Of a stretch of 55,370 bases of DNA, positions 1 through 52,221 are shown piece by piece (within the stretch, counting starts at the first letter, position 1; the number at the start of each line of letters is the position of its first letter). The notes beneath the pieces are model-generated. The model saw nothing but the letters and a program-made list of their open reading frames with translations. It was not told the origin of the DNA and searched no databases. The translations under genes and the position numbers were made by a program. The stretch lies in assembly GCA_017961235.1 (NCBI GenBank), contig JAGCXQ010000020.1, positions 1-55,370 on the forward strand, written 5' to 3'. The DNA is from Clostridiales bacterium (lineage in GTDB: Bacteria; Bacillota; Clostridia; Saccharofermentanales; Saccharofermentanaceae).

Positions 1-971
1 ATACGGCAGTTCTTACCTACTTCACAGTCCGATGCGATCGAGTTGTCGATCACGGTTCCGTCACCGACGATCACATTCTCCAGACGGGAATTCTCACCGA
101 TGACACACTCGTCGCCGATGACGGTGTTACCGAGCAGGATCGAGCCCGGGAGAATGAGTGTATCCATACCGATCTTGACGGTATCTGCGATCCAGGTCGT
201 CTCTGTATCGACGATCTGCACGCCGTCACGCATCAGCTTCTCGCAGGTTCTTCTATTGAGCATCTTGCCGACTTCCTGCAGCTGGATGCGGTCATTTACG
301 CCACGGGTCTCATCGAAGTCCGCCACATACGCGCCGACCTTATGGCCGTCACGGATCAGGATCTCGATGGTATCTGTCAGGTAGTATTCCTTCTGTGCAT
401 TCTTCGCATCGATACGTCCGAGTGCGGAAAGAAGCAGCGGTGTCTTAAAGCAGTAGATCGAGGAGTTGATCTCATTGACCTTCAGTTCCTCTTCCGTGCA
501 GTCACGGTGCTCGACGATCTTTACGACATTCCCCTCCGCGTTACGGATCACGCGTCCGTATCCCTTCGGATCCGGTGCCAGACCGGTGATGATGACCGCG
601 CCGTAATCACCCTGCTCGAACATCTCCAGTGCTTTTGAAATCGTATCGGAAGTAATGAGCGGAGCATCGCCCGGAAGTACGATCGTACATCCGTTTCTTC
701 CCTCGAGGAAAGGAGCTGCCTGCATGACCGCGTGTCCGGTACCGAGCTGCTGCTCCTGGAAAACAAATGCCACGTCTTCGCCGAGTACTTCTCTGACTTC
801 TTCCTGTCTGTGTCCTACGATATATACCTGCTCGTTCGCGCCTACTCCGGAAAGTGCTTCCGCGACCCAGCGGATCAGGGGTTTACCTGCAGCGAGCTGA
901 ACGACCTTCGAATGATTCGAGTGCATACGCTTTCCTTCACCGGCTGCCATGACAACTGCACAAAGCTCCAT
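1..971 (-). CDS. glmU: Bifunctional GlmU (N-acetylglucosamine-1-phosphate uridyltransferase / glucosamine-1-phosphate acetyltransferase), 3' end cut by window
   Basis: The gene makes UDP-N-acetylglucosamine for peptidoglycan and other envelope polymers. About 323 residues are visible and the frame runs open through the left edge. The N-terminal pyrophosphorylase domain shows MAAGEGKRMHSNHSK (residues 8-22), QLGTGHAV (75-82) and PGDAPL (100-105). From about residue 255 the hexapeptide repeats of the left-handed beta-helix acetyltransferase domain begin (LPGSILLGNTVIGDECVIG). The nucleotide loop differs from the textbook GxGTRM...PKVL form: Thr is Lys, Pro is Ser and Leu is Val, but the Arg and the second Lys are kept. 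The start at 971 has an AAGGAG site just upstream. Enzymatic identity is confident; the acetyltransferase half cannot be judged. Confidence 0.93.
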   Translation of the reverse strand, partial: MELCAVVMAAGEGKRMHSNHSKVVQLAAGKPLIRWVAEALSGVGANEQVYIVGHRQEEVREVLGEDVAFVFQEQQLGTGHAVMQAAPFLEGRNGCTIVLPGDAPLITSDTISKALEMFEQGDYGAVIITGLAPDPKGYGRVIRNAEGNVVKIVEHRDCTEEELKVNEINSSIYCFKTPLLLSALGRIDAKNAQKEYYLTDTIEILIRDGHKVGAYVADFDETRGVNDRIQLQEVGKMLNRRTCEKLMRDGVQIVDTETTWIADTVKIGMDTLILPGSILLGNTVIGDECVIGENSRLENVIVGDGTVIDNSIASDCEVGKNCR

Positions 972-1325
972 ATTCGTGTTCTCCTTTAAGGTTAAGTTAT
1001 TCCTTGTCTATGCACACAAAAACCCCAATGATCCTGCTCTTACGGGGGGCATCGATCATCGGATTCCTGATGATTTTCATATCAAGGATATTATATCTTT
1101 TTTCCGGGCGCTTTTCTACCTTTTTCTTTATCACATATCCCGCCTGATATGATTTATTTCATACTGCAAAAGCACTGTTCCCTTTACCGGGCGGCGGTTT
1201 AGAGAATATCAATAGATTTTTATGATGATTTCTGTTAAGATGGATGAAATACATCATCTTCGAAGAAAAGAGCGGAGTGTGTCCCGCGCTTCGAAGTCCC
1301 GCAACAATGGGGGAAAGGGATTAAC
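972..1325. other. Divergent intergenic region, glmU / sugar nucleotidyltransferase
   Basis: 354 bases without a credible gene. It holds the 5' regions of two divergent genes. A TATAAT box on the minus strand (1090-1095) could serve glmU but lacks a good -35 box. The octamer CTTCGAAG occurs twice (about 1259-1266 and 1289-1296) in the leader of the plus-strand gene and could form a hairpin. One copy of the over-represented nonamer AAAAGCACT lies at 1168-1176. Confidence 0.5.
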
Positions 1326-2869: not shown

Positions 2870-2874
2870 TTATA

Positions 2875-4890: not shown

Positions 4891-7515
4891 TTAATAAAAG
4901 TCTTTCCGGATCCCCTCGATGATCTCATCACGCATGACCCTCGACAAACCGATCGCCGTCGTCAGCACCACAACCAGAAGATGCGCCAGGACGACGATAA
5001 TGAAGTACGGCACATTGATATAGTGCGGGATCGAGGGCGCAATAAAGTGCACTGTTATCTGCATCGAGACAAGCAGGATCAGGACCAGCAGGAAGATACT
5101 CTCGAAGAAATAGATGAGGCTCTCCGAAATGACCATCCGGAATAGTGTTTTTCGCGACATACCGACAGCATTGAGAAGAATATATTCTTTCCTTCGGAAC
5201 ACGATATTACTGAGTACGGTCATGATGACGTTCAGGAAGCACATGAAACTGAGCATGGCGACATATCCGTACATGATGATGCGCACCAGTGAATTGACCG
5301 CGCTCCGTGCACGGTAATCGATACCGTTATCGATCAGCGTATCCGTCAGATACAGATTGTTTTCGAGTATATCCTTCATCCGGGCAACCGCCGTCACCGG
5401 ATTTCCTGCGGTAAAGAGGAATACCTCGTAACCGGACGAAGATCCCAGGTGATAATAATCTAATCTCGAGAGCGGCACATAGATCTCCATAACAGGTTCA
5501 CTGGTCTGAAGATCATCCGACAGATCGACCTCCGCGACCGGTTTCAGCGAGTGAATAAAACTCGGCCGGTTTTCAGAATTGATGTCCATCCTCATCTCGT
5601 CAGGAAGCTGCGAAAAGCCTTTCCCTTCATAGATCACTCTTCCGGTTTCCGTGTACATCGTGAGATTATTATTCACGATGCATAGCTCCGATCCGTATTC
5701 GAAGAACGGATCCGGATCGATGTCATTTTTCGTCAGAAGTTCCCGGTATGTTCCATCGTCGATAAAAACGATCGGCATATTAATATATTCTTCACCATAC
5801 GATGAGTTGATCAGATATTCACGTATCTGCTGAGATGCCAGAAATGAGGAAGAAAACTGCATCTGCTCGAAAGTCACATACATCATTTTACCGGTCTTCA
5901 CCGTATCCGCTTTATTCAGCAGATAGAACAAAGACTGGTCTTCTTCGGTAAAACCGCGATCTCCGGTCGGGAGCGTGTAGGAGATCACATTACTTGCCTC
6001 GTTCTCCTCGACGTGATAATTCTTGGTCACAGAGCGCACCATCATATTGGCAAAGAGGATCATAAATACACTGGCCATGATCGATATGACTGTCGCCATA
6101 TATCTCTTTCTGTACCGCTGATAGTTCTTCAGTGAGAGCGCACCGGTGAAGCCCAGAAGACGCATGGTGAGTGCGCGGTAGTTTTTCTTTTCCTTCTTTT
6201 GAAAAGCACTATCCTGGGATCTTACTGCTTCCATAGGAAGGACTTTTGATACTTTTATCACAGGGATCAGGACAGCGGCAAACACCGTCAGAAGTGAAAG
6301 GACAAGAGGTCCGGCCGTATTCTGGTATCCGATACGGTACTGCAGATCGATATTCTTGAGAATAAAGTAATTGGCGGCATTTCTGCCCAGATCACTCAGC
6401 GCAATAAACAGATAATAACTGCTTATATTTCCCAGGATAAGACCGATCGGGATCCCGAGAACAGAGTAGTAAAATGCCTCCTTAAACATGAGATCCCTTA
6501 CCTGTCTTCTGGTCGCGCCGACGGACTTCAGAAGGCCGATCGCACGAAGTCTCTCGGACGATGAGGATGCAAACGAATTATAGATAAGCATGATGGCCAG
6601 AAGTGCGATCATGGCGATCGTTCCGGCAGACACGATCGCAATGATCCTCTCGATCCTGGTATCGTCTGCGGAGTTCTCCAAGCGGATAAAATCCTTGTTG
6701 TAAAGGCAGTCATCCTCATAATCAAAATTGTCGGAAGTAAAGGCGATATAATCGGCCGGATCATTGAACTCAAAATATGCATTTACGGCAGAACCTGCCA
6801 TGACGCTCTCTGAGCGTGTAAGGATCGTATTTCTCGCGACCGATTTCCATGTCGCATATTCCGGTACTACAAAATAACCGACGATCGTATATTCCTGCTC
6901 GCCGATCGAGTAGAACTGTTCATTGACAAGACCGTTCTTATCTCTCTGAAGTCCCCGGAGATTCATGACCTTATGTCCCTGTGAATAGCGGGCATAGTAC
7001 GAAAGGTCGATAATAGTTCCGATCTCCAGATTATTCCTGTCATCCGAGAACATCTCCAGCGAGATGATCGCTTCGTTACTGTTCTGCGGCATTCTTCCTC
7101 TTACCAGAGAGATGTGGCACATATCCTCAAATCCGGGACTCATCGCAGCCAGAAAAAAATCATACTTGTCGATATACTGCAGAAGCCTCGGTTCCGCTTT
7201 CATCAGTTCTTCATCATATCCGAAGCCTGCGTTAAATCCGAGTTCCTGGATATATTCCACATTCTTGATCCGCTCATCCTTGGAGATGCTCTGGAAATCC
7301 ATGGAGGTCATCGAGTATGCTTCGACATGCCATGTACCATAGGCGTCACTTGCGAAGCTCTTCAGGATATCGATCGCGCTCTGATGCGCCGATGTCACGA
7401 TGGTAAACATCATCGTCGCGACAATGATCCCGATGAGAGTCAGTATCGATCTTCCTTTGTTCTTGAATACCGTACGCTTGGCATATTTGCTGACGATATT
7501 GGAGGACCGGCTCAT
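4891..7515 (-). CDS. ABC transporter permease, double FtsX/MacB type
   Basis: An 874-residue permease. About eight transmembrane helices are visible, arranged as two FtsX-like units: TM1 near residue 22-45, a large extracytoplasmic domain, TM2-4 near 290-425, TM5 near 470-495, a second large extracytoplasmic domain, and TM6-8 near 745-860. The SVGATRRQVRDLMFKEAF stretch after TM2 is the typical cytoplasmic coupling region. Eight rather than ten helices argues against a strict BceB assignment. Its ATG overlaps the stop of the ATPase gene (TCAT at 7512-7515), so the two are translationally coupled. Placement after a kinase-regulator pair suggests export or sensing of an envelope-active peptide; this is inference. 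Confidence 0.85.
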   Translation of the reverse strand: MSRSSNIVSKYAKRTVFKNKGRSILTLIGIIVATMMFTIVTSAHQSAIDILKSFASDAYGTWHVEAYSMTSMDFQSISKDERIKNVEYIQELGFNAGFGYDEELMKAEPRLLQYIDKYDFFLAAMSPGFEDMCHISLVRGRMPQNSNEAIISLEMFSDDRNNLEIGTIIDLSYYARYSQGHKVMNLRGLQRDKNGLVNEQFYSIGEQEYTIVGYFVVPEYATWKSVARNTILTRSESVMAGSAVNAYFEFNDPADYIAFTSDNFDYEDDCLYNKDFIRLENSADDTRIERIIAIVSAGTIAMIALLAIMLIYNSFASSSSERLRAIGLLKSVGATRRQVRDLMFKEAFYYSVLGIPIGLILGNISSYYLFIALSDLGRNAANYFILKNIDLQYRIGYQNTAGPLVLSLLTVFAAVLIPVIKVSKVLPMEAVRSQDSAFQKKEKKNYRALTMRLLGFTGALSLKNYQRYRKRYMATVISIMASVFMILFANMMVRSVTKNYHVEENEASNVISYTLPTGDRGFTEEDQSLFYLLNKADTVKTGKMMYVTFEQMQFSSSFLASQQIREYLINSSYGEEYINMPIVFIDDGTYRELLTKNDIDPDPFFEYGSELCIVNNNLTMYTETGRVIYEGKGFSQLPDEMRMDINSENRPSFIHSLKPVAEVDLSDDLQTSEPVMEIYVPLSRLDYYHLGSSSGYEVFLFTAGNPVTAVARMKDILENNLYLTDTLIDNGIDYRARSAVNSLVRIIMYGYVAMLSFMCFLNVIMTVLSNIVFRRKEYILLNAVGMSRKTLFRMVISESLIYFFESIFLLVLILLVSMQITVHFIAPSIPHYINVPYFIIVVLAHLLVVVLTTAIGLSRVMRDEIIEGIRKDFY

Positions 7516-10023: not shown

Positions 10024-12366
10024 TCATGCTTCTGCTGAAGCTTCCGAAGATACCGCCGAAGCATTTCCCTTTCTCTTTCTTCCCGTCGCGAAAAGCACTA
10101 TAAACGCGATCACGATCACGATCGTTACGCAGAGGCCGCCCTCCGGTCCGAATTTACCGCCGGTCAGAATATCCTTGGACATCTTGGTTGGCGCGGACGA
10201 GAAGATCGTCGCCGATTGCGGGTTGCCGCTGACTTCAAGACCGTACAGGTTGCCCTGGCAGAAGTTCCACACCGTATGCATGGCGCAGACGGTATAGATA
10301 TGTCCCTGACGGAGCGCGATGCAGGCAAAGAGTGCAGCGATCAGTGCGAGGTTGATCAAGGCCAGAACAGAGAATCCGGCGTTTCCTGCATGCAAGAGGG
10401 AGAAGCACAGCGAGGAGAAGATAATACCGGCCGGGATACCGAATCTTCCGGCGACACGCGGCATCATGTAGCCTCGCATCATGATCTCTTCCGTCGCGCC
10501 CTGCGGGATCCACATCAGAAGATAAAGGAAGAAAAGTCCTACGTTATCCGAAGTCAGTGCATATCCCTTGAAGGAGACCTGACCGGTCACAAACAGGAGG
10601 ACATATACCGAGGAGATCAGGATAAATCCGAGGAGCATTCCCCTCAGGTAGTTTCTCCACAGTGCCTTGCCCTTGCCTCTAAGGAAGGACGGGTTCGGGG
10701 TCCATGTATTCGCCGCAGTATCTTTCCCGGCGAGTTCTTTTGCCGAAGCAAAACCCATCGTGGCAAGACGGTTTCTCTCCAGGAGTTTTACGATCAGCAT
10801 ATAGATACCGATGATGCACCAGTAGCCGAGACCCATGAAGAAGATGAACCAGTGGTTCGCCATGAATTCAGAAAAGAGCGAAGCGGATTCCGACACCGCA
10901 TCTTCCACCGCAGAAAGGCTGGAGAGTTCGCGGAACATACGCAGGAACCGGACGGATTCTTCGGTCTTCATGTAGGAGATGACCGCCGGGATCATGGAGA
11001 TCAGCTGGAATACCGAGAGCAGCGCCAGCGGCAGAGCCGCATGACCGATCAGGAAACCGCCGAGTGATTTTCTCTTCACCGGACGATACCCGAAGACATT
11101 TGCTCTGGCGCGGGAAACATAGTCTTTCTCCTGCTTCTTCGCGCGCTCCATGGCTTTTCGGATCTCTTTATCGGATTTCGACTCGACGGATACCGTGAAC
11201 ATCTCGGTAGTAAGAAGCTTCTTCGATACCAGAAGGCAGATCCCCGCAAGAAGGAACGAGGTGAGTACACAGACCATGACCGGCAGGAATTCCGCCGTAT
11301 TCATCAGGCAGTCGCCGATACCGAAGAAATGTCCGTAGATCGGGAAAAACTTATTGATCGCATTGGCAGTGCTCGGCTGCATACAGGTCACACAGGCCAC
11401 CAGCACGATCATGAAGATCGGAAGGAATGCCGTCTGCGCGGAGATGATGGACTGGCTCATACAGGAGATCATGATCGTGATGGCTGCCATCAGCGCGATC
11501 ATAGACAGGGAGAGCGCCAGCACTCCGAGGAAACCGCCGATGGAAGTCGGGAAGAAAACGATCATGCATATCACGCTCGGGATCAGGGCATGAAGTGCCA
11601 CGCCCAGGAAATTACCCAGCACGATCGTCCAGCGGGACATCGGGGTCATGAGGATCGATGCAAATGTGCCTCTCTCCTTCTCACCGGCGATCGCATTCAT
11701 CGCGATGAGCATACATGTGTACATGATCGATACGAAGAAAAGAAGCGGTGCGACCATTCTCGAGATACGGTCACGGACCATGCCGGACTGTTTCTCACTC
11801 TCTATTGCTTCCGTATAGATGAGCGGCTGCTCACCGGAAGGAAGGTTAACACCGAGCCGGTTGGACAGATAATTGTAGTATCCGCTGCCGAGTTCATTGT
11901 CCAGGAAGTTTTCTCTGGCTTCTTCATATTCGAGATGATCTGTCGATATGAACGTCAGTATCTCCGGACGTTCCTCCACCTTTTTCACCAGGACTTTCTC
12001 ATCAAAATCCTTCGGGAAGACCAGGACCATAAACGCATCATATTCTTTCATCCATTTTGAGAAGGTGAAGACATCAAAGACCGCATCCGTCTCTTTATCC
12101 TCGATACCCAGCCAGAAGTAGTAATCCCTCTCCTCCGCATATTCCTTCCAGGAATCCGGAGCGTTGACTACGACGATGTTGGATGCAAGGGATGGATCCG
12201 GTCCGTCATTTCTGTGGATATACATATCGATAAAGCTGAAGAAATAGCACAGAACAACAAATACGAATGCTACACAGGCCAGGAATGTGATCACGGATGC
12301 CTGTGACTTCATCGTATGGTTCTTACCGAATGTTTTTCGGATCAATGCCTTCAGCGAACGACGCAT
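10024..12366 (-). CDS. ABC-2 type permease fused to a CPBP intramembrane protease domain
   Basis: A 780-residue membrane protein with two parts. Residues 1 to about 400 form an ABC-2 (NatB-like) permease: one N-terminal helix, a large extracytoplasmic domain, then about five helices, beginning with the MVAPLLFFVSIMYTCML stretch. Residues from about 440 to 770 form a second bundle carrying the three CPBP (CAAX-protease family) motifs: EEIMMR (EExxxR, near residue 625), FSLLH (near 657) and HTVWN (HxxxN, near 698). The start lies two bases after the ATPase stop behind GGGAGGGG. Such a fusion joins an exporter to a membrane protease that might process or protect against the cargo; the role is inference. 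Confidence 0.85.
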   Translation of the reverse strand: MRRSLKALIRKTFGKNHTMKSQASVITFLACVAFVFVVLCYFFSFIDMYIHRNDGPDPSLASNIVVVNAPDSWKEYAEERDYYFWLGIEDKETDAVFDVFTFSKWMKEYDAFMVLVFPKDFDEKVLVKKVEERPEILTFISTDHLEYEEARENFLDNELGSGYYNYLSNRLGVNLPSGEQPLIYTEAIESEKQSGMVRDRISRMVAPLLFFVSIMYTCMLIAMNAIAGEKERGTFASILMTPMSRWTIVLGNFLGVALHALIPSVICMIVFFPTSIGGFLGVLALSLSMIALMAAITIMISCMSQSIISAQTAFLPIFMIVLVACVTCMQPSTANAINKFFPIYGHFFGIGDCLMNTAEFLPVMVCVLTSFLLAGICLLVSKKLLTTEMFTVSVESKSDKEIRKAMERAKKQEKDYVSRARANVFGYRPVKRKSLGGFLIGHAALPLALLSVFQLISMIPAVISYMKTEESVRFLRMFRELSSLSAVEDAVSESASLFSEFMANHWFIFFMGLGYWCIIGIYMLIVKLLERNRLATMGFASAKELAGKDTAANTWTPNPSFLRGKGKALWRNYLRGMLLGFILISSVYVLLFVTGQVSFKGYALTSDNVGLFFLYLLMWIPQGATEEIMMRGYMMPRVAGRFGIPAGIIFSSLCFSLLHAGNAGFSVLALINLALIAALFACIALRQGHIYTVCAMHTVWNFCQGNLYGLEVSGNPQSATIFSSAPTKMSKDILTGGKFGPEGGLCVTIVIVIAFIVLFATGRKRKGNASAVSSEASAEA

Positions 12367-13103: not shown

Positions 13104-14388
13104 TGGCGCCTCCTTCTTCTGCTATATGCAGCATGCCGTCTTTACTCTTCAGGCATACGATAAACAGCTCAGCTGCGAAAATCAGGTTAATAAAGATGAC
13201 CAGTAAGACGGTCCACCAGGAATATGTCCCGTTGAAGATCTCCCGGATCGTCATGATCACATTATGGATAGGTATGAAGTACTCGGCGAGAATAGCATCC
13301 GACGGACGGAACATATTGCCGAAGAATTCGAAGATCAGAAGTACCAGCGGTACCTGCAGGTTCATGATGACATCCTGCATACGGCGGACCATGAAGGTGA
13401 TCCCGAAGCAGAGCATCGCTATCATGATCGCAGCGGTGACAAGAAGAATAAAGAATGCCAGCAGCTGCGAAGGTGTCAGGAAGAGTCCGAACGGGAGAAG
13501 TGAATAGGCACTGTTGCTCCGGTTCAGCCACGAGGACACAAATAGCAGGAAGAATGTCACCACGGCGCTGATAATGCCGACGAAGATGACCATGAGTGCT
13601 TTTCCGATAAGAAGGGATTCCTTCGAGATCGGGCTGAGATATACCTTCGTAAGAAAACCGCTCTGTCTTGCGGAAGCAAGTGTCTCCGCCGTCAGGGAAT
13701 AGATGCAGTAATACATAAGAAGTATCATCATGCTCGGAATCGTTCTGGATGCGCCGAGATTGGCGACCGAGCGGTTACTCGTCACGAATGTGAACGGATT
13801 AAAAAGATCGGTATCCCATCGCTCTCCTCCACCGGAGTCCAGATACGGCTGGCCGAGATGCTCGAGAAGATACGGGGAGTATCCTTTTGCTATATCTTCC
13901 TTGAACTGTTCGGCCTGAAGGTAGCTGTTATAATCTCCTTTATAGTCGATCTCCAGGATCATATGCATTCTTCTCGTACTCTCGCCTTGCGCAAGACGGG
14001 AATAGTAATCCGCTACGCATTCGTCAAAATCGACGACCTCAGTTCTTTCAGAAGCTGCGAAAAAGACGAAGATCCCGCCCTTTTTCATCTGCTCTTCCCG
14101 ATACTCTTCATCCATTGCCATCGCTTCGTCCATGCTCAGCCAGGTGACGGAGTAGAACGAGGACTTGGGATTGGACTCGAAATAATCCACAAAAGAATCC
14201 GGTGCATTTACTATCGTAACAGGACGGCTCTGAAGAGATCCGGTCGATAGATAGTTCATCAGCATCGGGAAAAGATTAATAGCGGCAAGGAGCAGGAGCG
14301 CCGGCAGAAGGAAGACCTTAAGTGTCTTCTGCCAGTTGTTGATGATCTTACTCATCTCCCATTTCAAAATCGTGATCGTGTGCCGCAT
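13069..14388 (-). CDS. ABC-2 type transporter permease
   Basis: A 439-residue permease of the ABC-2 (NatB-like) family. One N-terminal helix (about residues 25-47) is followed by an extracytoplasmic domain of roughly 165 residues and then about five helices (TM2 with PSMMILLMYYCIYSL, the LTKVYLSPISKESLLIG coupling region, and further helices to about 420). The extracytoplasmic part resembles that of the fused permease downstream in opening (VNAPDSF versus VNAPDSW) and layout, so the two probably form a heterodimer. A GAGG site precedes the ATG. The 3' end overlaps the ATPase gene by 35 bases. Confidence 0.85.
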   Translation of the reverse strand: MRHTITILKWEMSKIINNWQKTLKVFLLPALLLLAAINLFPMLMNYLSTGSLQSRPVTIVNAPDSFVDYFESNPKSSFYSVTWLSMDEAMAMDEEYREEQMKKGGIFVFFAASERTEVVDFDECVADYYSRLAQGESTRRMHMILEIDYKGDYNSYLQAEQFKEDIAKGYSPYLLEHLGQPYLDSGGGERWDTDLFNPFTFVTSNRSVANLGASRTIPSMMILLMYYCIYSLTAETLASARQSGFLTKVYLSPISKESLLIGKALMVIFVGIISAVVTFFLLFVSSWLNRSNSAYSLLPFGLFLTPSQLLAFFILLVTAAIMIAMLCFGITFMVRRMQDVIMNLQVPLVLLIFEFFGNMFRPSDAILAEYFIPIHNVIMTIREIFNGTYSWWTVLLVIFINLIFAAELFIVCLKSKDGMLHIAEEGGANDFGKSRKQKI

Positions 14389-14518: not shown

Positions 14519-15193
14519 TTACATTTTTTCCGGAAGTCCCATATGTCTGGTCTCGCACAGAAGCTCCACAACAGGCGTTGTTGCGCTTCCCGGCGTGCTG
14601 TTCATGCGGATGATCGTGATCGCCGTATGACGCATGCGGACAAGTGCACAGAGATAAGGGAACGGAATATTCAGAAGACGGGAGAGCATCGCCGTAAGAG
14701 ATCCGCCATGCGCGAAAAGCACTACCGTATATTCTTCATCGGTCTCTCTTTCACAGCGGTAGTAAAGGCCGTCTCTTCTATATCCGAGAGATGCCATCCA
14801 GGTGTCGGTCTCTTCCATGACGCGGTCCACATCAGAAGTCGCGAGGTTGCCCTGGAAGAACGGCCAGTCATGCCAGGAAGGATCGTTGATCAGTTCTCCT
14901 CTTTCTGCCATCGCATCTACTTCATCCCACGGATTTCCGCCGTCATAGAGCGCCTCACCATAGCCGAAGCGGATCTCCTTCATGAAGTCCAGGGTCTGGA
15001 TCTCACGGATGCCGGAGAGGTCTGAAAAAGCTTTTGCCGTTTCAAAGGCACGTCCGTACGGCGAAGAATAGATCTCGCGGATCTTATCTTCCATCAGTCT
15101 TTCCGCCGCCTGCCTGGCTTCTTTTCTTCCAAGTTCTGTCAGACAGTTCTTCTCATAATTCGGCTCGCCGTGCCGTACTAAAATAATTCTCAT
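14519..15193 (-). CDS. Histidine phosphatase family protein (phosphoglycerate-mutase-like)
   Basis: A 224-residue protein of the histidine phosphatase superfamily. The catalytic loop is LVRHGEPN (residues 5-12, His8). YSSPYGRAFETA supplies the second Arg, KEIRFGYGE the Glu region, and VLFAHGGS the second catalytic His. The family hydrolyses small phosphorylated metabolites; the substrate here is unknown. A GGAGCGAGGG stretch precedes the ATG. It lies after ackA but is separated from it by a strong terminator, so it is probably a separate unit. Confidence 0.88.
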   Translation of the reverse strand: MRIILVRHGEPNYEKNCLTELGRKEARQAAERLMEDKIREIYSSPYGRAFETAKAFSDLSGIREIQTLDFMKEIRFGYGEALYDGGNPWDEVDAMAERGELINDPSWHDWPFFQGNLATSDVDRVMEETDTWMASLGYRRDGLYYRCERETDEEYTVVLFAHGGSLTAMLSRLLNIPFPYLCALVRMRHTAITIIRMNSTPGSATTPVVELLCETRHMGLPEKM

Positions 15194-17711: not shown

Positions 17712-17738
17712 TTCCAAAAGCACTGCCCCTCGTACGTG

Positions 17739-18722
17739 TTATTGCTCCAGCTGAGACTTCAGATACAGAAGCATCTTTTCTTCGAACTTCAGAAAGATCT
17801 CATACTGTCTGGGATCATCGACCGTAAGTCCCGCCAGTCCTTCCTCGACGAACCGTCTCGCCGCCTCTTTGTCGTTTAAGATGTAGTACGCATAGTACGC
17901 GAGTTTTCTTCTTCCGTTCGAGTCCGTATCCGCATCGATATTTCTCTTCGAGTGCTGATAGAACTGGTTCGCCAGTTCCGGCACCTTATGACGGAAGGAA
18001 TAGTATGAGAATAAGACATTATCCAGATAGAAATGTCCCATATCCGTGAGGCCCACTGCCTTGAGCCGGGTCATCTCATCGATACACTCGGACATAGCGG
18101 CAAGATCGTTTCTCATCTCCGCGACCCGGTAGAAAGTGCACAGATATTTGAGCTTGGAACCCAGCGCAGCCGATCCGTACAGTACATGATCAAAGGGCAG
18201 AACCGCAAGATCTTCTTCCGTCTTCGCCTGATGGATGGACATCATCAGCTGCCATGTCTGTGCATCAAGACCTGTCGGCGTTTGTACTCTCTTGAGCTTG
18301 TAATAAGATATGCTAAAGAAAAGACCGAAACCGCCGGCACACATACCACCGAGAAGCGCACTTACTTCCGAACTGAGCGAATCGGTCCTTATAACTCCAA
18401 GCAGTAAGCTCAGCACACCAAAGATGACGGCAAGAACGATAGCAAGAACCGTATGGAAAGTGCTTTTCTCCTTGCTCGCGTCCACTCCTTTTTTATACAG
18501 GAAGGCCGTCGGATAGATCTGATTCAGGCGGGTCCTCGAGAACTTCATCTTCCCGGGCCGCTCTTTATCGTAGTAATCTCTGTCCCATCGGATAAATAAA
18601 CCGGCTACAGTAATAAGAATAAAGCCTTTGGCCTTGTAATATAAATATTCGAAAAGCACCCAGATCCACCCGAATACGAGAAGACCCAGTATCATACCTA
18701 GAAATATCAATAGAAAACCCAT
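17739..18722 (-). CDS. Membrane protein of unknown function
   Basis: I do not recognise this 327-residue protein. An N-terminal helix (about residues 4-26) is followed by a second hydrophobic stretch (about 30-45), a charged segment, and two further helices (about 90-112 and 120-140). The remaining 185 residues are hydrophilic and mostly helical, with Tyr, Leu and Ala spacing suggestive of TPR-like repeats, probably cytoplasmic. Its own promoter lies upstream. It stands between pta and the GH9 gene without close spacing to either, so context gives no functional hint. Confidence 0.7.
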   Translation of the reverse strand: MGFLLIFLGMILGLLVFGWIWVLFEYLYYKAKGFILITVAGLFIRWDRDYYDKERPGKMKFSRTRLNQIYPTAFLYKKGVDASKEKSTFHTVLAIVLAVIFGVLSLLLGVIRTDSLSSEVSALLGGMCAGGFGLFFSISYYKLKRVQTPTGLDAQTWQLMMSIHQAKTEEDLAVLPFDHVLYGSAALGSKLKYLCTFYRVAEMRNDLAAMSECIDEMTRLKAVGLTDMGHFYLDNVLFSYYSFRHKVPELANQFYQHSKRNIDADTDSNGRRKLAYYAYYILNDKEAARRFVEEGLAGLTVDDPRQYEIFLKFEEKMLLYLKSQLEQ

Positions 18723-18813: not shown

Positions 18814-21450
18814 TCAGCCCGGCTCGGTTCCGTAGATGCTCTTTCCGCCGGAACGGATGACGATCTTATCCGCACCCGATCTCGAGTAATCATCAGAGAG
18901 ATTGAAGTCGGACCAGTCGCCGTGGTGGATCGAGAACTGTACGATCAGCTTGTCGCCCTTCTCCAGTTTTCCCGATCCAAAAGCACTGATCGTGCAGCTT
19001 GTATCGGCTCCCGTTTTCTTCGGTTCGATCTTGGAGAATTCTCCTTTAACACTGTTAACAGCCTCGTAGTTTCCACCTTTGCGGCTCACGGCTGCGTGGT
19101 AGCAGTCAAAGGCAAGCGCACCGGATTTCTCGTTGGTGAAGTAGTACTCGACGGAAAGCGAAGCAAGATCGATCGGATCCGACCCTGTGTTCTCGATGGT
19201 CATATTTCCGGAGATCGCATTCCCTGTTCCGCTCATGCTGTACTCGATGGCTACCGTCACTTTTCCGTTTCCGGAAGGAGCCGGAGACGTCGGTGCAGGT
19301 GTCGTATCGGAAGGTCCCTGCGTCGGGGATGTCGGAGCAGGTGTCACCACATTTCCGGATCCGTCCGGAACCTGTCCGAAGACGAGAGAGCCATCTTCAA
19401 AGAGTGCTGCCGAAGCGGAGGACGAAGCATCCTGCGGAAGTCCCGTGATCCTGAACTGTACTTCTTTCTTATACTCTTCCTGTCCGCCAGGATAGCAGGA
19501 ATGATCCTTAAAGAGGACCTGCACGCAGGCGGTATTTCCGTCTCCGGCAAGGATCGTAAGGGATGATACATCCTGCCCGAAGGAAGAGGAGACCGACAGA
19601 TCCGATGCACTCTTTCCGGACGGGACAGTGAAGTAATAGCGCAGTTCAAGGCCCTTCGGGGCTCTTGCCGGCCATCCGGTCATGTTAAAAGTCAGTGCTT
19701 TTATCTCGAGAAAATCACTACCTCCGGCATTGACGGATGTTTCCACACGGTATTCTTCGCCGACACTTTCGCCGGCACCGAATCCCGTCAGCGTCTGGCC
19801 GTGGTAGCGTGTGTAGAGCTTTGCGAGAAGGCCTGTAAATCCTGCGTTATAGTCGCAGGCGACTTCGTTGGTGTTGTAGTTCGTGACTGTATCTTCATAG
19901 CCGTCACTTGCATCCGGGCCGCCGACCAGCGCGCCACAGAGCACGTGTCTGGAGGTCCCAGGTTCATTCATATTGTCGCAGTAGGAGCCCTGCGCTGTAC
20001 GATGGTGCGGATGCACCGGATAATTCTCGCCAAAGCCGATCATAAAAGAACGGCCGGTATCGCCCAGTGCATATCCCGCCTGATCGACTGCGAAGTTCCA
20101 GTAGGTATCCTTTTTCGCAGAAGGACATGCGTCACTCTCGCTATATACCGATGCGACAAAAGCGGTAGTCGTCGCATATCTGAGAGACCCCCAGCTATCG
20201 AGCCATGCCAGTCCTTTTGGCGTATAGGTGATCCTCTCTCCGGAAGATGTTCCGACCGTCCAGAAATCGAGATGCTTCTCGACCGCCTGCGTATAGGTCT
20301 TCTCGCCGGTCTCCTGCGAAAGGAGGACCGCAGCACCGATATGCACATCGTCCCAGCAGAGAGACCAGTTAAAGTCCTGATTTGCCTTCGGGTAATAATC
20401 CTTTGCCTTGCTCAGGTAAGAAGCATCCCCGGTGGCGCGGTAGAGCCATACAGCCGCCCAGGAGAGCTCATCATAAAAACCGCTCCAGGAGTTATAGAAG
20501 CCGTTCGCCGCGGTATATCCCGCATCGCTCTTATACTTGTCTGCGAAGGCATAAAGTGATTTTGCATGATTCAGGCAGGATTCGCTGAAGGATGGATCGA
20601 TGTCCTTAAAGAGGATACTGCAGATCGCAAGAGATGCAGCCGTCTCACCGGTCACCGCTGATCCCGGATGCTGTGCATCCACGAAGTAGGAAGGGCGGTT
20701 CATCTGATACTCGACGCATTCGCAAGCGCCCCACCATCCATGATCGGCATTACCGTCACCGACCTGGTAGAAGTACTTCTCCTCAGACGGATGGCACTTG
20801 ATGAAATATTCATTTGCCCAGCGGATATTTCCGAGCGCATAGTCGAGCTGCTTGCTCTCCACATAGGCGTCTTTATCTTCATAGACAGACCATCCGAGCA
20901 TGGATGCCGTATAGGCCATCGGGAGATTGAACTTGACGTTATCTCCTGCATCGAACCATCCTCCGGTCAGATCGATCCCCGCGTCAGATCCGTCGTTCAG
21001 GCAGGAGTCTCCGCGCCAGTTGGATCTGGTGTTCTCCGGGAGTTTTCCCGAGCGCTGGAGTTCATAGAAAAGAAGCGATTTCTGAAGAGCCTCGCCGTAG
21101 TTATATTTTCCGGTTCCCTTCGTGCCTTCGTAGCCGTCGCCCTTGATCGTGCCGATCTTCTTGATCTCGATGGGAGCATCCGGAGCAGTCGTCTCTTCCG
21201 TGCTTTCACTCTCTGAAGGGAGGGTATCGGAAGTTGTCTCATCCTCGGATTCCGAGGAAGATCCCTCTTCGGTCTCATCTATGACAGTCTCGGTTCCAGA
21301 AGTTTCCGGGGCCGATGTCGTCTCGGTCTTTTTCTTTCCGAAGGTGTTATGCCATGCGTAAACGACGCCGCCCAGAATAAGTGCGACGAGAATAAAAATG
21401 CCGCAAAGCACGGCAATTTTAGCTTTCTTCTGCATCTCTTTCAGTTTCAT
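18814..21450 (-). CDS. Membrane-anchored GH9 cellulase (endoglucanase) with CBM3-like modules
   Basis: An 878-residue glycoside hydrolase. A single hydrophobic helix (about residues 12-32) with no clear cleavage site is followed by a Ser/Thr/Glu linker (about 43-95). The GH9 domain (about 113-555) shows GGWFDAGDNVKFNLP (DAGD at 167-170, catalytic base), HPHHRTA (near 478) and NEVACDYNAGF (acid Glu near 528). A CBM3c-like module follows (about 570-705), as in processive theme-B GH9 enzymes. A Thr/Pro linker and a second CBM3-like module (about 735-878) end the protein. It should cut beta-1,4-glucan at the cell surface. The start overlaps the helicase gene by 32 bases behind AGGAG. Confidence 0.92.
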   Translation of the reverse strand: MKLKEMQKKAKIAVLCGIFILVALILGGVVYAWHNTFGKKKTETTSAPETSGTETVIDETEEGSSSESEDETTSDTLPSESESTEETTAPDAPIEIKKIGTIKGDGYEGTKGTGKYNYGEALQKSLLFYELQRSGKLPENTRSNWRGDSCLNDGSDAGIDLTGGWFDAGDNVKFNLPMAYTASMLGWSVYEDKDAYVESKQLDYALGNIRWANEYFIKCHPSEEKYFYQVGDGNADHGWWGACECVEYQMNRPSYFVDAQHPGSAVTGETAASLAICSILFKDIDPSFSESCLNHAKSLYAFADKYKSDAGYTAANGFYNSWSGFYDELSWAAVWLYRATGDASYLSKAKDYYPKANQDFNWSLCWDDVHIGAAVLLSQETGEKTYTQAVEKHLDFWTVGTSSGERITYTPKGLAWLDSWGSLRYATTTAFVASVYSESDACPSAKKDTYWNFAVDQAGYALGDTGRSFMIGFGENYPVHPHHRTAQGSYCDNMNEPGTSRHVLCGALVGGPDASDGYEDTVTNYNTNEVACDYNAGFTGLLAKLYTRYHGQTLTGFGAGESVGEEYRVETSVNAGGSDFLEIKALTFNMTGWPARAPKGLELRYYFTVPSGKSASDLSVSSSFGQDVSSLTILAGDGNTACVQVLFKDHSCYPGGQEEYKKEVQFRITGLPQDASSSASAALFEDGSLVFGQVPDGSGNVVTPAPTSPTQGPSDTTPAPTSPAPSGNGKVTVAIEYSMSGTGNAISGNMTIENTGSDPIDLASLSVEYYFTNEKSGALAFDCYHAAVSRKGGNYEAVNSVKGEFSKIEPKKTGADTSCTISAFGSGKLEKGDKLIVQFSIHHGDWSDFNLSDDYSRSGADKIVIRSGGKSIYGTEPG

Positions 21451-27596: not shown

Positions 27597-27607
27597 AGAA
27601 AAGCACT

Positions 27608-32509: not shown

Positions 32510-33154
32510 TTATACTCTCGCCGCGTGGATCTTCTCCACGGATTCTTTACTTAAATTCGTGATCGTCAGAAAGTTATGCTCACGGATATCTTTCGATGTG
32601 CATACGAAACTTCCGCCGATCGCGACGATGCACTTCTCCGAAGCAAACTCGGAGATATTCTCTAAGTTGACACCGCCTGTCGGCAGGAAACGCATATCGC
32701 GGAATACACCGGAAAGCGTTTTGATCGCCTTGATCCCGCCGAAGAGATTTGCCGGGAAGAATTTTACGACCGACAGTCCGAGTGCACGGGCCGCCATGAT
32801 CTCTGTCGGAGTGACACATCCGGGAACGACACCGGTCTTATTCTCGATACACCAGCGGACAACTTCTTCCGAGAATCCGGGGGAAACGATAAACTCTGCA
32901 CCGGCAGCAACAGCATCCTGTGCCTGTTTTACATCCAGGATCGTTCCTGCACCGACTACCATATCCGGCACTTCTGCCTTTACCTTCGCGATCGCATCTT
33001 TCGCACATGCAGTACGGAAAGTGATCTCCATCATACCGATGCCGCCCTGTAAAAGTGCTTTTGCCGTAGGAACCGCGTCTTCAATATTATCGATGACAAC
33101 GACCGGAACCAGTCCTGTCTCTTCCATCTTTTGCAAGATGATCTTATCTTCCAT
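32510..33154 (-). CDS. eda: KDPG/KHG aldolase
   Basis: A 214-residue class I aldolase that splits 2-keto-3-deoxy-6-phosphogluconate to pyruvate and glyceraldehyde-3-phosphate. MMEITFRT carries the catalytic Glu, GAGTILD and FIVSPGF the barrel loops, and VVKFFPANLFGG the Schiff-base Lys. LPTGGVN binds phosphate. A GGGAGGCAC stretch precedes the ATG. It is the first gene of the eda-kdgK unit and is divergent from uxaC. Confidence 0.95.
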   Translation of the reverse strand: MEDKIILQKMEETGLVPVVVIDNIEDAVPTAKALLQGGIGMMEITFRTACAKDAIAKVKAEVPDMVVGAGTILDVKQAQDAVAAGAEFIVSPGFSEEVVRWCIENKTGVVPGCVTPTEIMAARALGLSVVKFFPANLFGGIKAIKTLSGVFRDMRFLPTGGVNLENISEFASEKCIVAIGGSFVCTSKDIREHNFLTITNLSKESVEKIHAARV

Positions 33155-34838: not shown

Positions 34839-34914
34839 CGAAAAAATGAAAAAGACGGTTTCAGATAATGTGGGAGAACATTATCTTCAGAAAAATGCTT
34901 AATTTCAGTCCGTA

Positions 34915-35281: not shown

Positions 35282-35309
35282 AAAAGCCTCTGCAAAAACA
35301 GAGGCTTTT
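35282..35309 (-). terminator. Terminator of the esterase gene
   Basis: AAAAGCCTCTG (35282-35292) and CAGAGGCTTTT (35299-35309) form a perfect 11-base stem. On the minus strand it closes with TTTTT, downstream of the esterase stop at 35349. Confidence 0.88.
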
Positions 35310-35348
35310 GTCACACTTTGTGTTCAATTTGTGGTTGGATCTTGCGGC

Positions 35349-36878: not shown

Positions 36879-37073
36879 ATTCCCTTATTTCCTCTCGAGG
36901 ATCGGCACGTCAAAGATCCTTCCGATCTTCTGCCGATATATCATCTTATTTATAAAGTATAACACTCCATTACGCATTTCTATGGAATAACATGCTAAAA
37001 TACTAGACTTTTTCCACTTGTTTTTTCGATTCTCTCCATCTAATATATTGTGGAACAGGAGCCTAAGATATTT

Positions 37074-37904: not shown

Positions 37905-37913
37905 GGTAAAAGT

Positions 37914-38333: not shown

Positions 38334-38360
38334 TCCATTAAAGAAAAGAGGCATTTCATT

Positions 38361-39434: not shown

Positions 39435-39467
39435 TCCCGCAGTAATACAAAGTTTAGGAGACACAAT

Positions 39468-41087
39468 ATGCAATCTCTTTCGATGACAAGAGCTGATCTA
39501 AAGAATACGGAAGAATGGGAGAAAAGGAATATCGTTCTTCCCCGTTTTGATATCGATACCGTTAAGTCCAATACGGCAAAAGCACCGACATGGCTGCATT
39601 TCGGCGCCGGCAATATCTTCCGCGGTTTTATCGCACGCCTCTCGCAGGATCTTCTGAACCAGGGTCTTTGCGATACCGGCATCATCGCCGCGGATACTTT
39701 TGACTATGAGATCATCGACCGGATCTACCGTCCATACGATGACCTGACACTGATGGTCGATCTTCGTCCGGACGGAAGTACGGGATATGAGATCATCGGA
39801 AGTGTAACAGAGTCCAGAAAAGCAGATCCGTCGGATCAGGAAGAACTGACCCGCCTCTATGAGATCGCTGCTTCTTCCTCCCTCCAGCTGATCAGCTTTA
39901 CGATCACGGAGAAAGGATATGCTCTCCGAAATCTTCACGGAGATCTTCTCCCGGTAGTAGTAAGCGACATGGAAAAGGGTCCCTCCGATGCGCATCACGC
40001 GATGAGTATCGTCTGTGCTCTTCTGTGGGAACGCTTCCAGAAGGGCGGCGCTCCTTTGGCGCTGGCCTCGATGGACAACTGCAGCCAGAACGGCAAGAAG
40101 CTCAAGAGCAGCATCATCGAGATCGCGGAAGCCTGGGAAAGCAAGGGCTTCGTCAGCAGTGCTTTTGTAGAATATATCAATGACAGTTCCCGTATCTCCT
40201 TCCCATGGAGCATGATCGATAAGATCACTCCGCGTCCGGATGCCTCCGTCGAGAAGATGATCCTGGATATGGGAATAACGGATATGAGTCCTTTTACCAC
40301 ATCAAAGGGCACCTTCATCGCACCGTTTGTAAATGCGGAAGTTCCCCAGTATCTCGTGATCGAGGATGCCTTCCCGAACGGCCGTCCGCCGCTGGAAAAA
40401 GCAGGCGTGTTCATGACTGACCGCGACACGGTAAATAAGGCCGAGCGAATGAAGGTCACCACCTGCCTGAATCCGCTTCACACTGCGCTGGCAGTCTTCG
40501 GCTGCGTGCTGGGTTATACGCGTATCTCCGAGGAGATGAAGGACCCGCAGCTGGTCTCCCTGATCACAAAGATCGGTTACACCGAGGGCCTTCCCGTAGT
40601 TACTGATCCGGTCATTCTGAATCCGCGTTCTTTCCTCGCGGAAGTAATCGAAGAGCGTCTTCCGAATCCATTTATTCCGGATGCCCCGCAGCGTATTGCT
40701 ACCGATACGAGCCTGAAAGTCCCGATCCGTTTCGGCGAGACGATCAAGTCCTACATTTCCGATCCTTCGCTGGATCCTTCCGACCTGACATATATTCCTC
40801 TGGCGATCGCCGGATGGCTGAGATATCTTCTCGGCGTAGATGATAAGGGAGAGCCGATCGAGCTCAGCTCGGATCCGCTTCTGCCTTCCCTTCAGGCGCA
40901 GCTCTCCTCTGTGAAGTTCGGCGATCCGGAAAGTGTCTCCGGAAATCTGGATGAACTTCTCTCCAATACATCCGTATTCGGATCTGATCTTGTTGCATGC
41001 GGCCTTTCCAAAAAGATCGAAAAGTATCTCTCTGAAATGATCCAGGGACCGGGTGCAGTAAGAGAAACATTAGTAAGGAGACTGTGA
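39468..41087 (+). CDS. uxuB: D-mannonate oxidoreductase (fructuronate reductase)
   Basis: A 539-residue member of the long-chain mannitol dehydrogenase family, reducing D-fructuronate to D-mannonate with NADH. The nucleotide-binding site is WLHFGAGNIFRGF (about residues 42-54). The substrate region includes ALASMDNCSQNGKKL (with the Asp-Asn pair), and the catalytic Lys/His region appears as MKVTTCLNPLHTAL. Order uxuA-uxuB-regulator is typical of Firmicutes uronate operons. A TTAGGAG ribosome site precedes the ATG, and the stop codon overlaps a GTG of the next gene. Confidence 0.94.
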   Translation: MQSLSMTRADLKNTEEWEKRNIVLPRFDIDTVKSNTAKAPTWLHFGAGNIFRGFIARLSQDLLNQGLCDTGIIAADTFDYEIIDRIYRPYDDLTLMVDLRPDGSTGYEIIGSVTESRKADPSDQEELTRLYEIAASSSLQLISFTITEKGYALRNLHGDLLPVVVSDMEKGPSDAHHAMSIVCALLWERFQKGGAPLALASMDNCSQNGKKLKSSIIEIAEAWESKGFVSSAFVEYINDSSRISFPWSMIDKITPRPDASVEKMILDMGITDMSPFTTSKGTFIAPFVNAEVPQYLVIEDAFPNGRPPLEKAGVFMTDRDTVNKAERMKVTTCLNPLHTALAVFGCVLGYTRISEEMKDPQLVSLITKIGYTEGLPVVTDPVILNPRSFLAEVIEERLPNPFIPDAPQRIATDTSLKVPIRFGETIKSYISDPSLDPSDLTYIPLAIAGWLRYLLGVDDKGEPIELSSDPLLPSLQAQLSSVKFGDPESVSGNLDELLSNTSVFGSDLVACGLSKKIEKYLSEMIQGPGAVRETLVRRL

Positions 41088-41089
41088 TC

Positions 41090-44240: not shown

Positions 44241-44410
44241 TACTCATCGTTGTTGGTTATGCTGCTGCTATTATCGCTTGTGCCGGTCTGGCATTGCTCT
44301 TCGTCGCCAATATCCTCCGGATGTCCAACAGCTACGGCTCCGAGAGCGAGGATCATTCATGCATGAAAAGATTCAAATGTATGGATGTAGATCAGCGGCC
44401 GCGTCTGTAA
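44237..44410 (+). CDS. Small membrane protein, partner of zinc-ribbon paralog A
   Basis: A 57-residue protein. The ATG overlaps the stop of the zinc-ribbon gene (ATGA), which strongly supports translation. One transmembrane helix (about residues 2-27) is followed by a polar tail with NSYGSESEDH and CMKRFKCMDVDQR. The tail resembles that of the equivalent protein after the second zinc-ribbon gene (CMKHFRYEDVTKR). Function unknown. Its stop codon shares its last base with an AGTGCTTTT nonamer. Confidence 0.8.
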   Translation: MILIVVGYAAAIIACAGLALLFVANILRMSNSYGSESEDHSCMKRFKCMDVDQRPRL

Positions 44411-44479
44411 GTGCTTTTCCGAAAGATACATAAAAAGTGCTATAGTATTTCCTAGAGATAACTATTAGGGGGAAAGGAA

Positions 44480-50217: not shown

Positions 50218-50262
50218 CACATAAATGTCAATTATCAAATTTCCTCGCGAAATAGTGTTCGT

Positions 50263-52221
50263 CTAAGGGTTCAGATCGCATGGAGCCCTTCCGTAAAGTG
50301 TGTCTCCTCTGAAGCAGGAAAGAATGGCCTCTTCGAGATTCGGCGGATACGCACTTCCCGCCCCGGCTTCAGGGGGTACGTCTTTCAAGTCGGAAGAACA
50401 GTAAGAAAGGATCACCGCATCCGCTTCCGGGAATCTTTCCCCATCATATGGGAGCTGGCAGGAGATCACGATCACTGTCTTTCCTTCATCGTGTCTCGCC
50501 TTTATGATCCTGTCAAAAACGCCTGTAGAAAAACCGGCATCTTTTTTCGGATCCAGACAGGATCTGCTATAGACACGGGAGACGAGGATCACATTCTCCA
50601 CCCGCGAGGCCGCATCGAGGCACTCCTTCTCGTTCTCTTTCGTACTGACCATCAGTGTGATGTTTTCCTCCGGAAGTTTCTCCTTCGCCAGTTTCCCATA
50701 GCCGATCCGGCTCTCTGCACTTCCGGAAAACAGGATCAGTGTCTCCTTTCCGGATCTGGAAGAAAGCGGATACGCGCTGTTTTCATTTTTCAGAAGTGTC
50801 AGTGCCTGACGGGCGGTCTCGTGTGACTTTTCTCTGTGTTCCGCACACCCTACGATCTCTTTTGCAGCGGAGATCTTTTCGTCAGATACGGCAAAATCAC
50901 TTTCCTCCAGTATGCCGTGCTTTTCTTTCAGTATCAGGATCCTAAGAACAGAGTCATTGATCTCTTCTTCCTTGATGCGTCCGTCCTTTACCATCTCCAC
51001 GACCATCGCCACAGCACCGTCGGTCTTCTTGAAAGTGCTGTCGTTCCATACTCCCGGAAGAAGTAACATGTCTGCTCCGGCGTTGATCGTCATGCAAAGA
51101 ACATCTTCGAACCGGAAGTTCTCAGAGATGGCGGCCATCTCCAGAGAGTCAGTAACGATCACGCCGTGAAAACCCATGTCCTCACGAAGTATGTCCGTCA
51201 GGATCGTCCTGCTCAATGTCGCCGGAAGATACACCTCTTTTCCGGAAGAAGTCATATATGTCTCTTTCTCGATCAGGGGGTACTGGATATGCGCTGTCAT
51301 GATCATCTCTGCCCCGTTTCCGATGGCGGCGTCATAAGGGATAAGCTCGAAGTTTTTCAGTTCCTCGTACGTCTTGTCGATCCGAGGGAAACCAGTATGG
51401 CTGTCCGTACTTGTATCACCATGTCCCGGGAAGTGCTTCAGTGTCGATATCACGTTTCCATCAGAAAGCCCCTCGATGTAGGCTATTCCGAAGCTTGCGA
51501 CCACCTCCGGGTCATCGGAAAAAGAACGTACTCCGATCACGGGATTATTCGGATCATTATTCACATCGAGCACCGGTGCAAAGTCTGTATTGATCCCAAG
51601 AGTCCTCAGCTCTTCGGCATAGATCGAAGCCATCTCCTTCGCATTTTCCGGATCTCCGGTCGCTGCAAGCGCCATATTCCCGACACCACATGTGCCGTAG
51701 TGGACTCTTGTGATCAGCCCTCCCTCCTGATCTGTAGAGATCAGAAGCGGGATACTGCTTCCTCTCTGATTCGAGGTCTGAAGATCACTGACCAGACGAA
51801 GCGTCTGCTCTGCATCTGAGAAGTTCCCCGTGCCAAGCATCACCCCTCCGAAGTGATTGTCGGAAAGGCATGTTCTAATATCGTCGGTCAATTCAGTTCC
51901 GCTAAAAGAAGCGATCATCATCTGGCCGGCTTTCTCCTCGAGCGTCATACGCTGAAGGATCTCATATGCTTTCTCTTCCAGTGCTTTTTCCGAGGAAATA
52001 GTCTGCTCTGAGGAAGACTCTGAAGATAGGACCAGCGGATCCGTTTCTGACGATGTGATCTCCGTATATGTTTCTGAGGTCCGGCTTACTGACTCCACCT
52101 CGGATGATACCTGCGATTCAGTATCTTTTTTCTTTTCCGAGCAGCCTGAAATCATCCCAAGAATCACTCCTAAACTAAGGATCACAGCCTGAATCTGTTT
52201 TTTTCGCTTGTTCGTGTTCAT
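50263..52221 (-). CDS. Lipoprotein GH3 beta-N-acetylhexosaminidase (NagZ-like)
   Basis: A 652-residue exported lipoprotein. The lipobox MISGC puts the lipidated Cys at about residue 27, followed by a Ser/Thr/Glu linker (to about 85). The GH3 catalytic domain (about 85-430) has KHFPGHGDTSTDSH (near 262-275), the His-Asp loop typical of NagZ-type enzymes, and VIVTDSLEM (near 355) with the nucleophile Asp. A C-terminal GH3 domain (about 450-650) follows, as in Bacillus NagZ (YbbD). It probably releases GlcNAc from peptidoglycan fragments outside the cell. It has its own promoter region, divergent from the next gene. Confidence 0.92.
   Translation of the reverse strand: MNTNKRKKQIQAVILSLGVILGMISGCSEKKKDTESQVSSEVESVSRTSETYTEITSSETDPLVLSSESSSEQTISSEKALEEKAYEILQRMTLEEKAGQMMIASFSGTELTDDIRTCLSDNHFGGVMLGTGNFSDAEQTLRLVSDLQTSNQRGSSIPLLISTDQEGGLITRVHYGTCGVGNMALAATGDPENAKEMASIYAEELRTLGINTDFAPVLDVNNDPNNPVIGVRSFSDDPEVVASFGIAYIEGLSDGNVISTLKHFPGHGDTSTDSHTGFPRIDKTYEELKNFELIPYDAAIGNGAEMIMTAHIQYPLIEKETYMTSSGKEVYLPATLSRTILTDILREDMGFHGVIVTDSLEMAAISENFRFEDVLCMTINAGADMLLLPGVWNDSTFKKTDGAVAMVVEMVKDGRIKEEEINDSVLRILILKEKHGILEESDFAVSDEKISAAKEIVGCAEHREKSHETARQALTLLKNENSAYPLSSRSGKETLILFSGSAESRIGYGKLAKEKLPEENITLMVSTKENEKECLDAASRVENVILVSRVYSRSCLDPKKDAGFSTGVFDRIIKARHDEGKTVIVISCQLPYDGERFPEADAVILSYCSSDLKDVPPEAGAGSAYPPNLEEAILSCFRGDTLYGRAPCDLNP

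Follow-up and report, generated by a model that had tools for sequence, protein, structure and literature searches.

The window analysed here, a contig of 55,370 nucleotides (JAGCXQ010000020.1 of assembly GCA_017961235.1, from a Clostridiales bacterium), contains genes for a cellulase, for uronate catabolism and for a short type IV prepilin, and scattered through it are 20 exact copies of the 9-base word AAAAGCACT, nine on the forward and 11 on the reverse strand, which together span 628..51988 (Table 1). Only 0.19 copies (standard deviation (sd) 0.44) were expected from 100 dinucleotide shuffles of the window and 0.69 from a third-order Markov model, and the lists of its most over-represented 8- to 11-mers are headed by AAAAGCACT, its core or its extensions. 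The core, AAAAGCAC, occurs at 31 sites, namely the 20 exact copies and 11 more. A previous reading of this DNA from its letters alone (the sequence-only reading) had put the excess of the 20 copies at about 50-fold; the 11 additional core sites, four intergenic copies and pilin-like gene that it had listed were all recovered here, the intergenic positions with a home-made gene caller.

Table 1. Copies of AAAAGCACT and selected genes in the window
Feature	Positions	Strand	Context
AAAAGCACT copy 1	628..636	-	coding
AAAAGCACT copy 2	1168..1176	+	intergenic, between divergent genes
AAAAGCACT copy 3	6202..6210	+	coding
AAAAGCACT copy 4	10091..10099	+	coding
AAAAGCACT copy 5	13595..13603	-	coding
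AAAAGCACT copy 6	14715..14723	+	coding
AAAAGCACT copy 7	17716..17724	+	intergenic
AAAAGCACT copy 8	18459..18467	-	coding
AAAAGCACT copy 9	18979..18987	+	coding, GH9 cellulase gene
AAAAGCACT copy 10	19694..19702	-	coding, GH9 cellulase gene
AAAAGCACT copy 11	27192..27200	-	coding; aligned G009 site is AAATGCACT
AAAAGCACT copy 12	27599..27607	+	intergenic, between convergent genes
AAAAGCACT copy 13	28778..28786	-	coding
AAAAGCACT copy 14	29736..29744	-	coding
AAAAGCACT copy 15	29981..29989	+	coding; aligned G009 site is AAATGCACT
AAAAGCACT copy 16	32120..32128	+	coding; aligned G009 site is AAATGCACT
AAAAGCACT copy 17	33054..33062	-	coding
AAAAGCACT copy 18	40158..40166	-	coding
AAAAGCACT copy 19	44410..44418	-	intergenic
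AAAAGCACT copy 20	51980..51988	-	coding
GH9 cellulase gene with CBM3	18814-21450	-	bears copies 9 and 10
Uronate catabolism genes	33319-41773		UxaC, UxuA, oxidoreductase, regulator
Short type IV prepilin gene, 67 amino acids	34915..35118	-	N_methyl match

The enrichment extends over the whole genome to which the window belongs (2.73 Mb in 64 contigs, 87% complete; the window is contig C56), in which 917 copies were counted, 462 on the forward and 455 on the reverse strand, or about one per 3 kb (336 per Mb), against 38 (19 + 19) for the reversed word, which served as a composition control. Codon use and local context were examined in a reference set of 455 kb (455,370 bases, the window plus 400 kb of the same genome). 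In this set, 145 copies were found compared with 10.2 expected under a fourth-order Markov model, and the core tops the ranking of 8-mers, AAAAGCACT that of 9-mers and its extensions those of 10- to 13-mers. The gene caller predicted 349 genes (89% coding), placing 106 copies in genes and 36 between them, with three straddling a boundary; as it misses some genes (ComEC for one), some of the intergenic copies may in fact be coding. In 60 shuffles of synonymous codons only 5.4 coding copies (sd 2.3) were expected, and AAAAGCACT scored highest of the 3,000 commonest coding 9-mers under the same procedure. The coding copies are read mainly as AAA GCA CT (49), AGT GCT TTT (30) and GTG CTT TT (20), with seven in the remaining three phases, and the codons that the word imposes are often not the favoured ones, as AAG makes up 60% of Lys codons, TTC 58% of Phe codons and AGT 12% of Ser codons. 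Thus, the claims of the sequence-only reading that the word is a genome-wide signal, that it is read in all frames and that it brings in rarer codons all hold, and neither of the outcomes it had named as refuting, confinement to the window or counts near a codon-aware expectation, was observed. AAAAGCACT is over-represented genome-wide beyond what composition and codon use explain, the codon test covering 455 kb of the 2.73 Mb. Its density is higher between genes than within them (0.71 vs 0.26 per kb, p 2.8e-6); it amounts to 0.90 per kb in gaps of up to 500 bp and 0.47 per kb in longer ones.

The word is embedded in a larger motif, as its flanks are patterned across about 25 bp, also at intergenic copies. 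Upstream, there is T at -12/-9, C at -7, T at -6, C at -4, G or T at -3, G or C at -2 and G at -1, and downstream T or G at +9, C at +11/+12 and a weak T at +20/+21; the 36 intergenic copies, which have no reading frame, give the consensus TTTTTCTTCGGG-AAAAGCACT-TGTCC. The majority of one-base variants are not enriched in the reference set, but AAAAGCACC (48 vs 9.0 expected, 5.3-fold) and AAAAGAACT (49 vs 18 expected, 2.7-fold) are, and such enrichment of particular variants would be expected of a tolerant reader. AAAAGAACTG occurs in 10 to 291 copies across most genomes of the genus (116 in the genome studied here vs about 35 expected after scaling) and, being enriched in most of the genus, appears to be a tolerated variant and not a dialect of the species in which AAAAGCACT is weak.

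Among 23 genomes of the genus, AAAAGCACT is strong in 18 (148-361 per Mb) and low in five, namely G009, G008, G007, G020 and G021 (51-67 per Mb), or weak in 4/23 when G009, which has a changed form of the word, is set apart; the comparison across relatives proposed by the sequence-only reading therefore places the strong word within one genus. The 35 genomes from other genera of the family have 9-55 copies each, 40 other genomes of the order 1-47 each, and 290 genomes of the class (nine of them shared with the family and order count) at most 164 copies, in 4.8 Mb, with a top density of about 70 per Mb, so that the five low genomes of the genus lie within the class range. The densest genome outside the genus is that of a distant class member (G114), with 147 copies in 2.1 Mb and 20 of the reversed control. 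Loci were also selected by their PilB gene. The nine nearest (94-98% identical), which include Clostridiales bacterium Firm_16, Mageeibacillus sp. UBA3781 and RUG251 and for six of which a ruminant gut organ is named, hold 18 copies in 185 kb (reversed control 2), and the other 71 hold 14 in 1.25 Mb (reversed control 10); the next relatives by PilB (71-82% identity) include Saccharofermentans metagenome-assembled genomes, KHP2 and AB4001. Words that rank high in the sister PilB loci were discarded, as they probably reflect the same genes counted many times.

No substitute word was found in about 100 kb each of the weak genomes G008, G020 and G021. Two candidates were rejected: ATACCCAGTA (101 copies in G021 and 79 in G008) forms clusters and pairs spaced by about 276 bp, and is read as part of a repeated coding domain, probably of an amplified repeat-domain family, while GAAGCTCCTG in G008 belongs mostly to a 60-bp tandem coding repeat (8/10 copies). 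The sister genus g2 yielded no word of comparable strength in 200 kb; its top pooled 8-mer there is CGCGAAAA (26 vs 4.3 expected), possibly a weaker word particular to that genus.

In some species the word differs by one base. An 80-kb sample of G009 revealed AAATGCACTG, and whole-genome counts of AAATGCACT (the T form, as opposed to the A form AAAAGCACT) reach 388 in G009, 318 in G010 and 294 in G016, compared with 17-77 in the other 20 genomes of the genus and 6-18 for reversed controls. G010 and G016 hold both forms, with 399 and 418 copies of AAAAGCACT besides AAATGCACT. In 510 kb of G009, AAATGCACT occurs 83 times (7.2 expected), AAATGCACC 54 times (7.3) and AAAAGCACT 24 times (8.4). When 51 sites of the genome studied here were aligned to G009 (75.7% identity; alignments under 300 bases and strongly overlapping ones dropped), 12 were exactly AAATGCACT, three were AAAAGCACT, three AAAGGCACT and four gapped, and the remainder were other words. 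The same A-to-T-only change affects 22/2,099 other 9-mers starting with AAAA (1.05%), giving p 1.9e-13 for 12/51, and conversely 12/32 aligned G009 sites carry AAAAGCACT in the genome studied here. Such an in-place shift is predicted by a change of receptor and is hard to obtain from codon use, repeats or terminators, and we infer that AAAAGCACT and AAATGCACT serve as recognition dialects by which exchange between species is reduced. In a ComEC tree of 21 of the 23 genomes, G010 and G016 form a sister pair (100/100) that G007 joins, and G009 is on a separate branch (91/93) whose placement is only moderately supported, so the T form looks as if it arose twice.

Conservation of individual sites was compared with the background of identical 9-mers, after removal of alignments under 400 bases and of strongly overlapping ones. 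In 14 relatives together, 37/134 sites are kept (24.3 expected). In groups of relatives that were defined after the individual counts were known, four species with a strong A form and under 80% identity keep 19/48 (G002 6/12, G005 3/14, G012 5/13, G017 5/9), where 7.2 are expected (simulated p 3e-5, with all conservation p values being optimistic because the same site may be counted in more than one relative), and the three T-form species keep 3/33 (G009 1/21, plus five as AAATGCACT; G010 1/5; G016 1/7), where 4.4 are expected. Sites thus persist in distant lineages that have a strong word and not where the word is weak or changed, and near relatives show no excess.

The competence machinery that the sequence-only reading had suggested looking for is present. 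ComEC was detected in 21/23 genomes of the genus (not found in G001 and G017), ComEA in 22/23 (not found in G017) and a PilB-type ATPase in 22/23 (not found in G010), and both ComEC and ComEA are found in 12/12 genomes with completeness of 90% or more and contamination of 5% or less. The pilus operon of the genome studied here, on contig C47, encodes PilB, PilT, PilC, PilM and PilN and adjoins a prepilin peptidase gene, and its four pilins are present in each of the 19 genomes of the genus in which the region was read. Near the operon, an open frame of more than 2,300 amino acids (L062:13048-20000, + strand), which runs off the stretch, perhaps encodes a surface protein. The prepilin of the window is a paralogue of, and very like, the first pilin of this operon, and its gene stands alone between sugar-acid genes; it may possibly be part of the predicted uptake pilus, and nothing ties the window copy to the word.

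Uptake is favoured over nucleoid binding and modification, the other two roles that had tentatively been offered for the word, by the density of the word throughout the genome, its even split between the strands, its confinement to one genus, its extended flank consensus, the dialect change in place and the genes for ComEC, ComEA and a type IV pilus found in these genomes. From these sequence data, AAAAGCACT is likely to be a DNA uptake sequence of these Clostridia, predicted to favour the import of kin DNA. The competence pilus would bind DNA bearing AAAAGCACT and thereby give kin DNA an advantage over foreign DNA in import and recombination. The word may be read by a minor pilin at the pilus tip or by another surface DNA receptor, perhaps linked to ComEA; successive rounds of uptake and recombination of fragments carrying the word would disseminate and maintain it, and if the receptor changed, the favoured base would change with it and existing sites would be converted where they stand. 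With slightly less confidence, we also consider it probable that the word evolved independently in Clostridia, apart from the two Gram-negative families in which uptake words are known, as an uptake sequence whose dialects, AAAAGCACT and AAATGCACT, act as barriers to gene exchange among gut species.

The distribution of the word along the genome bears on two other explanations. Chi words, recombination hot spots read by AddAB/RecBCD, are short, genome-wide, non-palindromic and lineage-specific, and a Chi-like word that also protects or processes incoming self DNA would resemble AAAAGCACT in all of these features and in its density. But known Chi words are oriented with replication, and a flank pattern as long as the one seen here is atypical of them. 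Replication direction was judged only via long contigs with GC (guanine-cytosine) skew and gene-strand bias; no strand polarity with replication was seen on the two used, the copies being 35/38 by strand on C47, despite coding of 123 to 39 kb by strand and a GC skew of 0.058, and 20/25 on C24, nor was polarity seen with transcription among the 106 coding copies (54 along the gene, 52 against). Thus, neither the orientation bias with replication that marks Chi nor the bias toward the terminus that marks KOPS (FtsK-orienting polar sequences) was detected on these contigs, in line with the argument from mixed orientation in the sequence-only reading, and a Chi- or KOPS-like role appears unlikely. 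A binding site for a nucleoid-organising or chromosome-segregation protein, which we regard as a shade less probable again, would agree with the even strand use, the intergenic preference and a nearly two-fold difference in density between C24 (45 copies in 200 kb) and C47 (73 in 180 kb; p 0.0017). However, regular spacing was not seen, the gaps being close to random (coefficient of variation 1.16 vs 1.05 for random positions, sd 0.09), the density varies 7-fold (51 to 361 per Mb) inside one genus, and both the A-to-T change in G009 and the mixed forms in two species would require a general protein to have shifted its preference.

The remaining explanations are poorer still. Since restriction targets are usually avoided and this word is enriched, and since extended flanks and tolerance of variants fit poorly with a target of a DNA methylase or restriction system, such a target is very improbable. 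Least plausible of all is a dispersed repeat, part of a terminator, or a codon or dipeptide bias: AAA GCA and GCT TTT are ordinary codons, and two of the 36 intergenic copies do lie in the loop of a perfect stem, but the synonymous shuffles fall far short of the observed coding count, the copies occupy several frames and both strands, the flanks show little conservation beyond about 13 bp save the weak T at +20/+21, and stems at only 2/36 intergenic copies speak against a terminator or hairpin role.

Several observations weigh against the word being an uptake sequence. The four weak species keep 4/28 aligned sites (G007 3/11, G008 0/7, G020 1/6, G021 0/4), where 3.5 are expected, and the three nearest relatives keep 11/25 (G015 4/10, G006 5/9, G001 2/6), where 9.3 are expected (p 0.30). 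These four weak species have both ComEC and ComEA, yet only 57-67 copies per Mb. Outside the genus, 11 of the 12 genomes sampled from the family likewise have a PilB-type ATPase; the pilus therefore does not account for the word, and the machinery is necessary at most. G010 (95% complete) holds both words, ComEC and ComEA, and neither a PilB-type ATPase nor a fourth pilin was found in it, either because the genes were lost recently or because the bin is incomplete there. Codon-atypical genes are richer in AAAAGCACT (0.40 vs 0.16 per kb), two long word-free gaps contain genes that look ordinary by eye, and the pilus-operon region is itself a word-free gap of 14.8 kb; the first two of these observations give no sign that foreign DNA avoids the word. 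A receptor was also sought through co-variation of the pilins with the word, and none was identified, the signal being weak. With 18 species, the fourth pilin has five columns of residues unique to the T form (rank 1 of 112 distant pairs), with all 22 species only three (tied); the third pilin has five T-form-only columns and is outdone by an unrelated pair, and the fourth pilins of clades with the A word in common differ greatly. For a structural model of the fourth pilin (predicted local distance difference test 79.5, predicted template modelling score 0.65), no solved structure matched at E 0.001; the best match, the PilB minor pilin of S. sanguinis (3.7e-3), is uninformative on DNA binding.

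Among the neighbouring genes of the window, the GH9 cellulase with CBM3 fits a fibre-degrading gut organism. The uronate catabolism region encodes UxaC, UxuA, an oxidoreductase of the mannitol-dehydrogenase type and a GntR/FCD regulator. The palindromic words TTTTTCGAAAAA / TTTTCGAAAA are moderately enriched in the window (four copies, both strands counted) and in a sister-genus genome (G030).

Compared with known systems, AAAAGCACT is, like HIP1 of cyanobacteria, a lineage-specific and highly over-represented word; HIP1 is a palindromic octamer, whereas AAAAGCACT is non-palindromic and has oriented flanks. The genus resembles monoderm bacteria with a competence pilus of the ComG type in having type IV pilus genes, ComEA and ComEC, but the ComG type is not known to include PilM, PilN and PilT, all of which are encoded in the operon described above. 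In S. pneumoniae, DNA binding is ascribed to positively charged residues at the tip formed by minor pilins (PMC12040237), and the present genus would differ in having a sequence preference.

Within the single literature collection searched, we found no description of a clostridial uptake sequence. According to a 2020 study (PMC7811141), strong uptake preference for short motifs occurs in species from two families, the Pasteurellaceae and the Neisseriaceae. If AAAAGCACT is an uptake sequence, it would represent a third, unrelated origin and make self-recognition in transformation a recurrent outcome, and members of the genus would be implied to be naturally competent. It would also provide a new setting, including a dialect switch observed at homologous sites, in which receptor bias could be tested against preference for kin DNA as the reason why uptake words exist, and a practical key for transforming members of the genus. 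The uptake signal sequence (USS) of Pasteurellaceae, AAGTGCGGT, whose core has 1,465 copies in H. influenzae (PMC7811141), resembles AAAAGCACT in having a 9-base core, hundreds of copies or more and flanks that add to the motif, and the reverse complement of AAAAGCACT, often extended as AAGTGCTTTT, has AAGTGC in common with it, possibly by coincidence. AAAAGCACT is otherwise a different word, with flanks strongest on the side of the A-run, and occurs in Clostridia at a lower density (336 per Mb). The DNA uptake sequences (DUS) of Neisseriaceae form dialects that differ by single bases and follow lineages, two of them in one S. muelleri genome (PMC3630211), and dialects of uptake words are also described in PMC12616744. 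The single-base dialects of the present genus, with two forms per genome in G010 and G016, are similar, but the word is unrelated to DUS and no ComP-like receptor was identified in the genus. In a letter-by-letter comparison limited to the words given in passages of two sources, AAAAGCACT matches neither the two USS words of PMC12616744 nor the DUS of PMC6370729. Because it is unlike these words, we do not place AAAAGCACT in either of those families, and take it to work like them.

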